A model generated the notes under the pieces. That model did not search any database, was not told the DNA's origin, and worked only from the letters and a program-made list of their open reading frames with translations. Below are positions 5,168 through 33,388 of a DNA stretch of 64,000 nt, piece after piece. How positions within the stretch are numbered: the stretch's first letter is position 1; each line of letters opens with the position of its first letter. Source of the stretch: Fibrobacter sp. UWH6 (GTDB taxonomy: Bacteria > Fibrobacterota > Fibrobacteria > Fibrobacterales > Fibrobacteraceae); assembly GCF_900142465.1 (NCBI RefSeq), contig NZ_FRAX01000013.1, positions 1 through 64,000 on the forward strand. Reading direction: 5' to 3'. Position numbers and translations under genes: made by a program.

Positions 5168-6592
5168 ATGCGATTATCATACGATTTTAGCGGACTGTTT
5201 GATTGCTCTGCCGATAAGACACGTGATTTGCCGGAAGAATTCAAGGTAAAAGCCAAGAAATTCTTTTGGACTTTCGATAAGGTTTCCGTTTTTCCGGAAT
5301 TGGAAATTCCTGTATTTTTCAATGACTTTTTTGAATACTTACAATCACCAGATGTCTTGCCGAGCCTAAAGCGTTACCAAAAGGTATTCGTCTTCCCATT
5401 TTATTATCAAAAATTCAAAGAGAAAGCTGCTGACGAAGTAAATCGCAGAAGCCTGTATATGGGTTTTGAAGGCTGCATTCCTGAGTTCAATACAGAACAA
5501 ATGACGGATCGTCGCCGTAGAGAATATGTGCAGGAGTTTCGAAAAGGGGAATGGCCGGATATCAAAAATCCCCTAGACATTTTTGGCGACGCGGAGTCCG
5601 ACAACATATTCAAAAGGATATTTCAGTTCATTTATGCAGCATCTGTTTTTATTCGGTATTGCGACGAATCTCGCATCGATTTTGACCTTCTTGGAAGCAT
5701 CAGCTTTTCAAAGGATCCCGAGCAATCGTCCAATCGGTTCAAGAATGTACCATTTGCAGTGAATGAAGCAAACACTCCACTGATTATTGATTTTTTCTTC
5801 CCCATAATACAGGAAAAATCTTTTGACCATCTCGGAATAGATGCCCAGTTAAATTTATTATTTACTCGTAAGTTGGCAAGCAACTTTACGAAATGCGAGC
5901 GAAGCCATATTTTCCAAGAATGTATAGCAAAGGTGTTCTTGCCAGCCTGGAACCAGAAGAAGAAAATATTTCACGAGCGAAAGGGCTTTAAGACAAAACT
6001 ATCTACGCTGTTTAAGGAACTATTATTTAGAGCACGTTTTTACGGAATAATTGCGACACCCTACATTGACTTGGTGGATGACGAGTCCTCTTATCCTGAC
6101 GCAGTCATGGCAAAGCTGGAATTGTCCCATTTGAGCTACCGCAATAATTCCCTCCTCGATACAAATAAGTTCATCAAGAGATCTAGATCAACGTATTCCA
6201 TGCGTTTAAAAGGAACTCCCCTAAAAAACGACCAGAATGATGAGGAAAAAAATATTTTGTCACTTGTAAAGATGCCCAAAATCTTACAATTTTTGAGCTA
6301 CATCTCTGAGCAACGTTCCTTTATAGAAAATCAGATTTCATTAGAAAATGCAAATCGTGAGGAAGTGTATAATTTTTTGTATAACACCCTTACAGAAAAT
6401 TTCCAAGACGTAAGGGAATTTCTGCAAACGAACAAGGCAAAGTTCACTAATATGAATTCGGAAAGATGGATGTTCCCTACGTTAATGGACAGACTCATGT
6501 ATTTTAGATTCCTAACTTATGGTGATTTTGTAGAAGTATCAAAAATCAACCTGGATGTTCCGGAATTCATCAATTGGGCGCTAAAAAAGTAA
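5168..6592 (+). CDS. Unknown 474-residue protein of the defence island
   Basis: Starts at an ATG with AAGGG eight bases upstream, the only long plus-strand gene in the first 24 kb. I do not recognise a domain. The protein is rich in Phe, Lys and Asn, has no signal peptide or clear membrane segment, and looks soluble and mostly helical. Notable stretches are FFWTFDKVSVFPE near residue 35, RRRREYVQEF near 115, and a C-terminal DRLMYFRFLTYGDFVEV. No nuclease, helicase or transferase motif is obvious. It is followed by a terminator at 6649-6682 and sits between an SMC-like ATPase and an McrC-like nuclease on the opposite strand, so a defence role is a guess from neighbourhood only. Confidence 0.75.
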   Translation: MRLSYDFSGLFDCSADKTRDLPEEFKVKAKKFFWTFDKVSVFPELEIPVFFNDFFEYLQSPDVLPSLKRYQKVFVFPFYYQKFKEKAADEVNRRSLYMGFEGCIPEFNTEQMTDRRRREYVQEFRKGEWPDIKNPLDIFGDAESDNIFKRIFQFIYAASVFIRYCDESRIDFDLLGSISFSKDPEQSSNRFKNVPFAVNEANTPLIIDFFFPIIQEKSFDHLGIDAQLNLLFTRKLASNFTKCERSHIFQECIAKVFLPAWNQKKKIFHERKGFKTKLSTLFKELLFRARFYGIIATPYIDLVDDESSYPDAVMAKLELSHLSYRNNSLLDTNKFIKRSRSTYSMRLKGTPLKNDQNDEEKNILSLVKMPKILQFLSYISEQRSFIENQISLENANREEVYNFLYNTLTENFQDVREFLQTNKAKFTNMNSERWMFPTLMDRLMYFRFLTYGDFVEVSKINLDVPEFINWALKK

Positions 6593-25846: not shown

Positions 25847-26671
25847 CTATTTCTGCATTTCAGCTAGCTTCGCCTTGAGTTCGGCAATCTCGCGTTCTTG
25901 CTTTTCGATGGTTTCGTCCTTTGCGGCGATAATCTTCTGGTTTCGCTCGCGCTCTTTTTCGCGTTCATCTTCCCTGGCGAGCTGGATTTCCTGTTCCCAT
26001 GTCATGTAACGCTCCTGCGTCTGGTTGTCGGTCTGGTACCACTTTACCTTGGTGTCGATTTCCTCGGTCTCCGTGGAGTCAGCAGTGTTGGTTGCGAAAT
26101 ACTTCAGGTACGGCTTGAGGGGATGCTCGTCCGGAAGTTTCTTATACTCGTTAAAGATATAAAAATTCTTGAAGGTGCGGTCGTTCAAAGCGACATCTTT
26201 ATTCTCCACCGCGAAATTCTGGAAACTGTAGATGGGCTGGTCCTTCCCAAAGATGTCATCTGGGCAGATGAAAAGCACGTACTGGTCTTTGAGACTCTTG
26301 TACATGGTGCCCCTGTGCAGCTCGTGAGTGTCGCGAATGGACTGGTAGTAGCGGGCGCGCTTGGGAAGTTCCTTTGTGTCCTTCACCTGCATCTCCAAAT
26401 CAAAAGAACGGATGGTCTTGCCTTTCTCGTCGATCTGCTGGGTGAACACGTCGTAGCGGACGCTCTTGTTGAAGACGCCCACCTGTTCCGTCTTTTCCTG
26501 CTCGGGCTCCTTCAGGTCGTAGATCTTGATGCCGAGGGCGGCCTCGATGAAGGGCTTGGCGATTTCCTTGTGGCTCATGACCAGCGGGAACACGAAACTG
26601 TTGGTGATGGTGAATTTTGAGATGCCTCCGGCTCCAGTGCCAAAGTCCTCCGAAGTCTTGCTTTCGCTCAT
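25847..26671 (-). CDS. Rpn-family PD-(D/E)XK nuclease (putative transposase, TIGR01784-like)
   Basis: 274 residues. Features of the family: N-terminal FTITNSFVFPLVMS, the core with VRYDVFTQQIDEKGKTIRSF, then DLEMQVKDT (D...ExQ-type nuclease site) and YYQSIRDTHELHRGTMY, later YFATNTADS. The C-terminal 60 residues are a charged coiled coil (EKQEREIAELKAKLAEMQK) that is identical to the ends of the broken copies at 28735 and 29056. Rpn proteins are DNA nucleases that promote recombination and appear in many copies per genome. The conserved flanks on both sides suggest that the gene spreads as a unit. It looks intact. Confidence 0.85.
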   Translation of the reverse strand: MSESKTSEDFGTGAGGISKFTITNSFVFPLVMSHKEIAKPFIEAALGIKIYDLKEPEQEKTEQVGVFNKSVRYDVFTQQIDEKGKTIRSFDLEMQVKDTKELPKRARYYQSIRDTHELHRGTMYKSLKDQYVLFICPDDIFGKDQPIYSFQNFAVENKDVALNDRTFKNFYIFNEYKKLPDEHPLKPYLKYFATNTADSTETEEIDTKVKWYQTDNQTQERYMTWEQEIQLAREDEREKERERNQKIIAAKDETIEKQEREIAELKAKLAEMQK

Positions 26672-29055: not shown

Positions 29056-29790
29056 TTATTTGCTCATTTCTGCCAGCTTTGCCTGAAGAGCGGCGATCAG
29101 CGCGTCCTTCTCAGCGAGGGCATTGTCCTTCTCGGCCAGGGCATTGTCCTTCTCGGCGAGGGCGTTGTCCTTCTCGACCAGTTTGGCATCCTTCGCCTTG
29201 CTTGCCGACTCCATCCTGCGAACCTTGCGTTCAAGAGCGCGTCGTTCGTCGCCTGCACTCACAAAGCCAAGCCTTTGTCCAATACTCTTGAAAGCCATCT
29301 TCAGTTCCTCCAATGCCTTGCGGCTGACATACTCATCCAAATATAACTCAATCTTACTTACAAGGCAAGCGCTTTCGCTGCTGGGTAACGTCCGCAACTT
29401 TTTCTCCATTTCAGGCAGCAACGACTCGTACTTTATCATGTCGAAGGCGTACTTCATGGTGATGGCACCAATGGCCGCCTCAGCGTTGCTGTGAGCCAGG
29501 CAAAGGTCGTCGTCAATTTCCGCCAGGTTCACAAAGGCGAACTCGAAATGCGGAATGCGGCCGTTGTACATGGCATGGATGTTTTTGTATTGCTCTTGTC
29601 AATCCGCTTCGCCCCGCTCGCCAACTTCGTCGAAGGCCTCGGGGATTTCCTCCAATGTGTCCAGGTCCACTTCTGCAAGGATATCGGCCAGGTTCCGGTT
29701 TGTCTTTGACGCAATCTCAAAAAGCGCCTTCGTGTTCACAGGTTTCGAGTAGACGTATTTCAGGAATCCGTCATGTTTCCGTTTGTTCAT
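29056..29790 (-). pseudogene. Rpn-family nuclease with in-frame stop and internal deletion
   Basis: An N-terminal piece (29602-29790: HDGFLKYVYSKPVNTKALFE, then LDTLEEIPEAFDEVGERGEAD) runs into a TGA at 29599-29601. The same frame continues with QEQYKN, YNGRIPHFEFAFVNLAEI and the family C terminus with a coiled coil containing three tandem ALAEKDN units. In intact relatives about 60 residues, including the nuclease site, separate these pieces. So the gene has a deletion plus a nonsense codon and is not functional. Its leader is the conserved 105-bp block. Confidence 0.8.
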
Positions 29791-29913: not shown

Positions 29914-30146
29914 CTCGCGGGGAATTCCTGGATCCAATCGCAGCTTCGCCTCCATTTGCAAAAAAAAGACCCTTTCGGGTCCTAATGGCAAGAGCGTCCC
30001 GTTTTTAAGATCGTTGCTAAGATTCCGAAACAAGTTCGGAATGACGTTTCGCTACATTCGAAAAGACTTGACTTTCCTCTTGCATTTCTCGACAAATTAA
30101 GTTATCTTTGGCCTCGTTTTTTGGCATAGGGTTTTCGAGGTTCATC
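29914..30146. other. Intergenic region with minus-strand terminator and hairpin repeat
   Basis: Holds a terminator facing left at about 29958-29985 (GGACCC-GAAA-GGGTC then T8 on the minus strand), with no gene feeding it. It also holds a GATTCCGAAACAAGTTCGGA inverted repeat near 30018, of a kind often scattered in Fibrobacter intergenic DNA. The rest should contain the promoter of the protease gene. Confidence 0.5.
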
Positions 30147-31779
30147 ATGAGATTTCTTGCAGTTACGCTTGCAGGGGTGCTTTTTGCCTGTAGCGAAAAT
30201 GTTTCTTCTTTCGAGGTCGGTTTTACAAGGGGCGAGCCCCTAGCCCAAACGGCAGCGGTCAGCTTTCCGGCAGACAAGTATACAGAGGCCTACTCCGGAA
30301 TACTAACAAATTCTCTTACCCCCCCCCCCCCATTTGTGCACTAGTTGTTCCGAAGGTTCGGAATATTGGCTGAACGACTCGGCAATCTCCAAAGACGAAT
30401 ACCTGGCCAGAGTCCAGGATTACGAACAGCGCGACCTTTCCCGCAGCACCTATACCCAGCCGATCGTCGACAGGCCCCCAATGGAGTACCCCTACGATGG
30501 CTGGACCTATCGCTTTTCTTACGGTTCCACAATTCCATTTAGCGATTCCCGCTACACGTCCATCACTACCATAAATTCCCAGAACGGAATGGACCAGATT
30601 CCGGAATCATCCCTTAGGGGGAACGGGGTCAGTGTTTATTGGATGGGCGAAGCACTCCCCCTGCCTTCTGGTTCGCCCAACGTGGTCCAGCCGGACTACA
30701 GGAATTACAGGCGCTTGCCAGAAGATATTTTAAGCTCCACGCGTCAGGTTCAGCTGATCGGGGTCTTGGCGCCAAACGTCTGCATTACGGGAATCGACTT
30801 TATTTTCAATTACGTCAATGGCCATCAGCCGATCCTACCCAATAATCCGATGGTCAACGATATCCGTAGCGGTTGCGGCAGCTACTATCTCGGTGCCCAC
30901 GTTTTCAACGATACCAGCAATCACAATATCGGCTATAATGCCGAAGCCGCCGTTCTCGACGACTACATATACAATACTAGAGTCATAATGCTTGCGTCTA
31001 ACGGAGAACTATACGGAACACGGTTCCATCCTAATTCGGCGGGGAGCAGCCACAACGCCATTTCTGTGGCGGGCATCAGCACCCAGACTTTGTTGCTGGC
31101 AAGTATCGCCACCATGCCCCAGGTAGTAAATGCCGACAAGATCTTTTTGCCTTCGGAATCCCAGATTGTTGTCAAGAGGCATCTGACGGTGGCCAGCGAA
31201 TATACCACCTACATGGTCGACGACCCTATTACGGGGAGCATGCGTTCGGCGGCGGCAACGGCCTATACGGCGGGCATGCTGGCCAACTTGCTTTCGGACC
31301 ATCCCTTTTACCGCTGGCACCCCGAGGTCGTAAAGGCCCTGATGTTGACCACCAACGTTTCAAATGGAGGCACTCCCGATTACGTGGCCATGACCCACAA
31401 CAATGTTTCGCGCTACTGGGTCGGGGGCAACGGCGACCATTTCGTAAAGGCAGATTCCGCCAACGTCGAAGAGATTTACGTACCCGATGCCGGGCCGGTT
31501 CGCGAAGGGGCCACCTGGCGCATGGCCATCGCCTGGCTCACCCGTGGCGATTATCCCCTTAGCCACGAATCGCTACAGCAAGAGATGAGCCTGAGCGTAA
31601 ACGTGCTGAATGCCCGGGGCGAAATTCTGGAATCCTACACCGCCGACAAAGAAGGCCAGGGGCACCAGGTTCTAAACTTCAAGATTCCCGCCGGAGCCAC
31701 CCGCGTCGAGTACGCCATCCGCCGAACCCAAAACAAAGGCGGCCGCACCCTGCTAGGCTTCAACCTGCATATAGAATAA
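30147..31779 (+). CDS. Subtilase-like lipoprotein, frame broken at a poly-C tract (phase-variable candidate)
   Basis: The first part (ATG 30147) encodes a lipoprotein signal (MRFLAVTLAGVLFAC) and about 40 residues, then reaches a run of 13 C at 30319-30331 and stops at 30344. The body continues in another frame to 31779 (about 480 residues). With one C fewer the two join into a protein of about 545 residues. The body resembles a subtilisin-like fold: HNAISVAGIS, then GSMRSAAATAYTAGMLANLL in the place of the GTSxAxPHVAG serine motif, HPEVVKALMLTTN, and a C-terminal beta domain. The active site looks degenerate. There is no competing start with a ribosome site for the body, so this sequence shows the OFF state, or else a sequencing error in the C run. 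Confidence 0.7.
30319..30331 (+). repeat. Poly-C tract (13 C) inside the protease-like gene
   Basis: Homopolymer run exactly at the frame junction of the 30147-31779 gene. Length counted from the reading frames; 12 or 15 C would restore the frame. Confidence 0.85.
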
Positions 31780-31834: not shown

Positions 31835-32557
31835 TTAGTTATATAGGCTTCCTGAACGGGGTCTTCCTTTTTTACCGAAGGTCCGATGGGTAATCTTGTC
31901 TAGGGCAGTCAGGAACTTGTCACACTGCATGTCGAAATTCAGTCCTGATTGCAAATCCGCATTCCCTGTCAGCACCAAAAAGAGTTTTGTACACTCCTGG
32001 CGTAATTCCGCCTTGGTGCCGTATCCGGCTCTGTCGTGGCGCTTCTGAGCAATTTCATAGGCGGCCATGAAACCTTCTACAAAGACCTCTACACGTTCTA
32101 GGCGCTGCTTGATGTCGCTAGATTCATAGACTTCGGCATTGTTAGGGTCCTCCCCCAAAGTCTTGACATCAAGGATTCTTCTCTTGACTACCACGGTCGC
32201 TTCTGCAGGCACCAAATCTTCGATTACGATCCCATCCTGGATTACGCTACACACCCGTTGCGCAAAGGCAGCCCATTCCTCGTTTGTATTGTTCTGCAGG
32301 GCCCCTACGTATCTTGCGAAGTTTCTGTATAGTCCGAGCTGATTGTCAAAAAGTTCGCCCAAGGTCAGGATAGCGGCAGCGCTCCGTTCGTTGTCAATCA
32401 CAATTTCCAGGTTCGCGACCCTGGCCCTGTAATTGCGGAGCAGCCTTCCAAAAGCTTCCCGCTTAATACAGGAACTGGCTTCCAGGACTTCCTTGTGGAA
32501 CTTCAAGAATTCATCATCACTCATCTTTTGGGGTCTAAAGAAACTCATGCTAGTCAT
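31835..32557 (-). CDS. Unknown 240-residue protein (DUF6261-like?), paralogue of the next gene
   Basis: Helical soluble protein beginning SFFRPQKMSDDEFLKFHKEV; the upstream neighbour has the same pattern LNDNNFIAFHRNVINSASGI, so the two are paralogues. AGGAG lies 12 bases before the first ATG (a second ATG three codons on is an alternative). The layout (defaults to long helices, an E.EVFVEGFMAAYE helix near 150, then DLQSGLNF) recalls uncharacterised DUF6261-type proteins, but I am unsure of this assignment. No catalytic motif. The gap to the upstream gene is 30 bases, so they form an operon. Confidence 0.65.
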   Translation of the reverse strand: MTSMSFFRPQKMSDDEFLKFHKEVLEASSCIKREAFGRLLRNYRARVANLEIVIDNERSAAAILTLGELFDNQLGLYRNFARYVGALQNNTNEEWAAFAQRVCSVIQDGIVIEDLVPAEATVVVKRRILDVKTLGEDPNNAEVYESSDIKQRLERVEVFVEGFMAAYEIAQKRHDRAGYGTKAELRQECTKLFLVLTGNADLQSGLNFDMQCDKFLTALDKITHRTFGKKGRPRSGSLYN

Positions 32558-32587: not shown

Positions 32588-33388
32588 TTACGCCACCTCG
32601 GTCATCACGTCAGACACAACTTCCGTTGTACTTTCAGCAGCCTGTTCTGCAGTCTGATTGGCATTCTGTTCGCCCTTCTGGGCATTGGTCTTGCCACGAT
32701 ACAGATAGCGGATTTCATTTACAGCAGCAGACACATAGCTAACGAATCCCGTACAAGAAACATCTGCCTTGACCGTAGCAATATATTCCGCCAAATGGAA
32801 GGTTCTGTAGAACTGGACCATACATTCTTCACGCAGATCCTTGTTTTTCAGGGGGACACGATTTGCGCGTTCAACACGGCAGTCATTTCTAAGGTCAGAA
32901 TAATTTGTCTGGATTTCTGTAAGAGTATTCACCCACAGTTCCAATTCACTACCGGCATAAATGGCGGCGTATTCTTCCTTAGCGACCACATCTTTCACAT
33001 GATCCAGAGACTTTTTGACCATGCTAGAAATGGCGTCGCGATTGACCGCAGCCGTATAACCGAAGCTCTTGACCAACTTCCAGATTTCGTTACCTAAAGC
33101 ACGCTGGGTTTCGTTGGGGTGAACAGTCAGCACCTTCACATAGTTACGAAAACCACGGAACTGAACAGTACGTTCTACACCCGAAACAGATGCATCATGC
33201 TTCGCCATGATTTCAGAAACATTACGAGTGTAATCAACGAACTTCTGAACTGCGATTTCGTAGCTTGCCACCTGAGCAACCATTTCTTTAAGAGTGATAC
33301 CCGAAGCAGAATTGATCACATTCCTATGGAAAGCGATGAAGTTATTGTCATTAAGTTTGCTTGCATTAATGATATTGTTATTAGACAT
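32588..33388 (-). CDS. Unknown 266-residue protein, first of the paralogous pair
   Basis: Soluble helical protein: LNDNNFIAFHRNVINSASGI at the start, then long helices, then a C-terminal tail rich in Gln, Ala and Glu (NQTAEQAAESTTEV) that looks disordered. It shares its N-terminal pattern and overall size with the 31835-32557 product. Three 21-bp phased repeats lie 150-210 bp upstream and may be part of its control region. Function unknown. Confidence 0.65.
   Translation of the reverse strand: MSNNNIINASKLNDNNFIAFHRNVINSASGITLKEMVAQVASYEIAVQKFVDYTRNVSEIMAKHDASVSGVERTVQFRGFRNYVKVLTVHPNETQRALGNEIWKLVKSFGYTAAVNRDAISSMVKKSLDHVKDVVAKEEYAAIYAGSELELWVNTLTEIQTNYSDLRNDCRVERANRVPLKNKDLREECMVQFYRTFHLAEYIATVKADVSCTGFVSYVSAAVNEIRYLYRGKTNAQKGEQNANQTAEQAAESTTEVVSDVMTEVA

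Follow-up and report, generated by a model that had tools for sequence, protein, structure and literature searches.

Phase variation through homopolymer slippage is known mainly from pathogens. In Neisseria, phase-variable surface genes carry poly-C/G runs, and their switching has been shown. Twenty-nine slipped-strand poly-G/poly-C contingency loci have been described in Campylobacter jejuni NCTC11168, and the poly-G/C tracts of Campylobacter undergo about 1e-3 mutations per division (PMC4965091). According to a review, G/C tracts act as switches in both intragenic and intergenic positions (PMC8355987). In the 64,000-nucleotide stretch of DNA analysed here (the window), we found a gene that resembles the C. 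jejuni contingency genes, which mostly concern surface features, in that it contains a long C/G run within a reading frame, at which a one-base change would turn the frame on or off. It differs from them in its gene family, and in that many loci and measured switching are known there, whereas here a single in-gene tract was seen in the genome. Like the Neisseria genes, it encodes an exported protein and has its poly-C run close to the 5' end; the demonstrated switching is a difference, and no homology to the window protein is claimed. We propose, with about even confidence, that the window gene is a slipped-strand phase-variable (contingency) gene, a single locus captured in the OFF state.

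In the preliminary description of this DNA, a signal peptide and a protein body had been placed in different frames, with the break at a run of 13 C, and the present analysis bore this out. The features of the locus are collected in Table 1. The signal-peptide frame, with the sequence MRFLAVTLAGVLFAC..., starts at the ATG at position 30147 and reaches a TAG stop at 30342-30344, ending after 65 codons as sequenced. The body frame comprises 490 open codons (30307 to 31776) and is closed by a stop at 31777-31779. Because both frames are open together only within 38 nt, the break must fall there, and the only homopolymer in this interval is the run of exactly 13 C (C13), a long simple repeat inside a reading frame. 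All 490 body codons were inspected, and neither a second stop nor a frameshift was found; decay elsewhere in the gene, which had been named as a possible objection, is absent across these codons, and a change in the length of C13 would restore or disrupt a frame that is otherwise intact. The body frame was also considered as a separate exported protein, and this was rejected, as its first candidate start has no signal peptide. A promoter scan of the region 5' of the gene gave nothing beyond the shuffled level.

Table 1. Features of the split gene and its C13 tract in the window.
Feature	Position	Strand	Description
Likely ribosome-binding site	30132..30146	+	GAGG a few bases 5' of ATG 30147, read from the sequence
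5' part of the gene	30147..30344	+	Signal peptide with candidate lipobox, then mature N-terminus
Sole interval with both frames open	30307..30344	+	The frame must break here
C13 homopolymer at the frame break	30319..30331	+	
Body frame	30334..31779	+	481 codons from TTG 30334; subtilisin-fold domain with degenerate catalytic positions and C-terminal beta domain

Judged by alignment, the signal-peptide and body pieces are one gene, since both align in order to a single intact frame, L028, of another Fibrobacter genome. Relatives were searched in 61 genomes (36 of the same genus besides its own, and the others from the same order, class and phylum), and the best relative of the body was L028 (E 4.5e-66, 41%), one open frame of 564 codons in a MAG named as Fibrobacter succinogenes (G001; the locus is also labelled L123). 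The body aligns with residues 60-560 of L028, and the N-terminal 55 residues of the window gene align with its first 53 residues with a score of 48, against a shuffle mean of 22; this score was reached by 2 of 5000 shuffles, in which the signal and mature parts were shuffled apart. None of the other family N-termini scored above 29 against the window gene. Additionally, testing the N-terminus against a family profile gave a weak result (277.8 bits, reached by 7 of 300 shuffles), so that it is the closest relative, L028, only, that carries the N-terminal homology. The claim that a change in tract length would fuse the two frames thus stands at the level of the sequence, the frames being collinear with intact L028 and free of any other lesion. 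This collinearity, together with the C13 in the break interval and the undamaged body, favours phase variation. In the alignment, the tract falls in a turn between the conserved ..SGILTN and SEGSEYWLND, where the loops of the relatives are short and variable, and its position in a loop that tolerates length change favours the same reading. The phase of the tract is no evidence, because a third of all lengths would preserve the frame by chance. No same-species copies with which to compare tract length were found in the genus genomes, genome contigs or viral contigs, each species being represented by one genome.

Export of the product is predicted, in agreement with the signal peptide proposed initially, and its N-terminus matches that of L028. 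A candidate lipobox, LFAC with Cys15 (VLFAC by eye), is acceptable yet non-canonical, with an atypical F at -2. L028 has GAC where the window gene has the lipobox Cys, and the signals of most family members are signal-peptidase-I-like, without Cys at this position; a lipoprotein assignment of the window gene product is plausible. In Pfam, the body matches Peptidase_S8 (PF00082) weakly, under the curated cut-off, and no sequence match to it was returned from NCBIfam or the PDB. A structure model built from an alignment of 11 sequences (A1) had a mean pLDDT of 74.5 and a pTM of 0.84 for the body, and its best Foldseek matches in the PDB were the subtilases 1wmd (E 1.2e-15) and 5fax; the model and these matches indicate a subtilisin fold. 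Of the original "protease-like" designation, the fold was therefore retained and catalysis was not. In the alignment, the Asp/His/Ser set of catalytic residues is incomplete: the GTSAATP of the paralogues L031 and L026 aligns to RSAAATA in the window gene (Ser to Ala), and the catalytic His position is likewise not conserved, neither position being kept in the closest relatives. The GTS motif is kept in paralogues such as L031, L026 and L032, and is missing in the window gene, L028, L022, L024 and L053. With neither the catalytic His nor the catalytic Ser conserved, the product is most likely a pseudo-protease, for which binding or scaffolding would be a natural guess. It thus shares its fold with the subtilase family PF00082, and differs from it in the lack of the conserved catalytic His/Ser and in a Pfam score under the cut-off.

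By sequence comparison, the window gene belongs, as a diverged member, to a family of exported subtilisin-fold proteins of Fibrobacter (members labelled L022-L174), with several paralogues in the window genome. It is collinear with the paralogues over its whole length, and has a signal peptide and the same C-terminal domain; it differs from them in carrying C13 and in lacking, like L028, a DVLGR motif close to the N-terminus. A conserved-motif search found the family nearly confined to Fibrobacter, and the few loci labelled outside the genus are on short rumen or reticulum MAG contigs and may reflect misbinning. Intact reading frames were seen in 79 distinct members, so that a full-length gene is the normal state in this family. 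Besides the window gene, the members broken or truncated away from contig edges were L023 (in the window genome), L034 (at an A10 run), L036 (with an in-frame stop) and L038, and because the broken share of the family is about 6%, ordinary decay is a serious rival to phase variation. In such a case, a one-off slippage at a mutable run would have inactivated a dispensable, already non-catalytic paralogue that is now decaying. The at least four other broken or truncated members and the redundancy of the family, with its several paralogues in this genome, are in line with a pseudogene, whereas the 490 codons without a second lesion and a break that coincides exactly with the genome's longest in-gene C/G run are not, and we consider this explanation rather doubtful. 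In L093 (G016 C1, about 5779-5818), an A10 run interrupts a family member a few dozen residues 3' of the break point of the window gene.

The draft assembly of the window genome (G000) comprises 3,921,019 bases (3.92 Mb) in 50 contigs. It contains 14 C/G runs of at least 9 bases versus 14-21 expected, and 2 of at least 13 bases versus 0.05-0.08 expected, under a base-composition or first-order (dinucleotide) model with the composition taken from the window; only the longest runs therefore exceed chance. When the 14 runs were assigned by eye, using stop-to-stop frames and the neighbouring sequence, C13 alone appeared to lie within a gene. None of the other 13, among them the intergenic 14-base run on contig 38, falls in a likely gene, and they were therefore rejected as further switches. 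That C13 is the sole in-gene C/G run of at least 9 bases, and that the 13- and 14-base runs exceed chance, favours phase variation. A sequencing or assembly error, that is, a one-base consensus error at a tract that in truth keeps the frame of an ordinary, intact gene, would fit a draft assembly of 50 contigs and the proneness of most sequencing chemistries to errors at long C runs. We regard it as unlikely, and whatever the true length, so long an in-gene C run would still be exceptional in this genome and prone to slippage. It is important to mention that other observations argue against phase variation: the window genome has one in-gene tract, where many would be typical of a phase-variable genome; it also carries a full-length mutL; and the tract is not conserved, being absent from the closest relative L028.

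Should the gene be phase-variable, slipped-strand mispairing at replication would add or remove C bases in the tract, whose length would then be expected to vary among cells, and the presence of mutL may lower the rate of slippage. At a frame-keeping length, the gene would yield a pseudo-subtilisin of about 543 residues, full-length, exported and probably anchored at the surface, and at C13 translation would end after 65 codons, leaving the gene OFF, possibly with a slight leak where ribosomes slip by +1 on the CCC run. With the product presumably at the cell surface, the benefit could lie in a varied phage receptor or antigen, or in bet-hedging of an adhesin or scaffold. A further reading is recoding, whereby a gene fixed at C13 gives both short and full-length products through slippage of ribosomes (or RNA polymerase) on the CCC run. 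Such runs tend to shift by +1, as would be needed here. The tract and the break, unlike programmed frameshifts, are conserved in no relative, and we regard recoding as very improbable. For RNA polymerase, transcriptional slippage has been described at homopolymers of eight or more, usually of A or T (PMC3711429), which would also be in its favour.

Among 80 genomes, 34 C/G tracts of at least 12 bases were found, most of them intergenic by codon scores and reading frames, and a few of them touching genes; the latter, together with the normally intact state of the family, favour phase variation of the window gene. In L110 (G017 contig 6), a lipoprotein gene whose product has a Fib_succ_major domain, a C14 tract (locus 1502-1515) begins at the fourth codon, shortly behind the ATG, and is in frame as sequenced; this gene is, on its sequence, a second candidate for phase variation. 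Additionally, a G12 lies in frame within a glycerophosphodiester phosphodiesterase-like (GDPD) gene (L104, G080 C2), another G12 lies near the C-terminus of a gene that resembles Fib_succ_major by eye (L089), and a G13 lies directly 5' of a Fib_succ_major-like gene (L114). Two tracts, a G14 (L178, G078 C10:62925-62951) and a G15 (L179, G069 C3:223967-223993), are each located near a lipoprotein gene, between TTTACA and TAAAC boxes 16 bases apart, and a pattern search for tracts of the form TTTACA-16-TAAAC returned these two cases only. By pattern match, they resemble phase-variable promoter spacers. It is possible, and we suggest it tentatively, that Fibrobacter switches individual surface proteins by C/G slippage, with the pseudo-subtilisin here and, in other species, L110-type lipoproteins and promoter-spacer-like G14/G15 tracts. 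If so, no slipped-strand contingency loci would have been reported for the phylum before these, as far as the literature searched shows.

The mechanism itself is already known; phase variation of such a gene is unreported for Fibrobacter in the literature searched, where, among the open publications mentioning both Fibrobacter and phase variation, no title or beginning of an abstract concerned phase variation in Fibrobacter. If the proposal is true, a plant-fibre degrader of the gut randomly varies an exported protein, which would suggest pressure from phages or competitors, or a division of labour on fibre.

Other features were observed on both sides of the gene. On the minus strand, at 29056-29790 of the window, a gene is seemingly split in two frames of 63 and 171 codons, and its C-terminal part resembles that of a PD-(D/E)XK transposase-like protein at 25847-26671. 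A DUF6261 protein is encoded at 32588-33388 on the minus strand, and a neighbouring gene of 240 codons at 31835-32557, which has no Pfam match, reads as similar to it.
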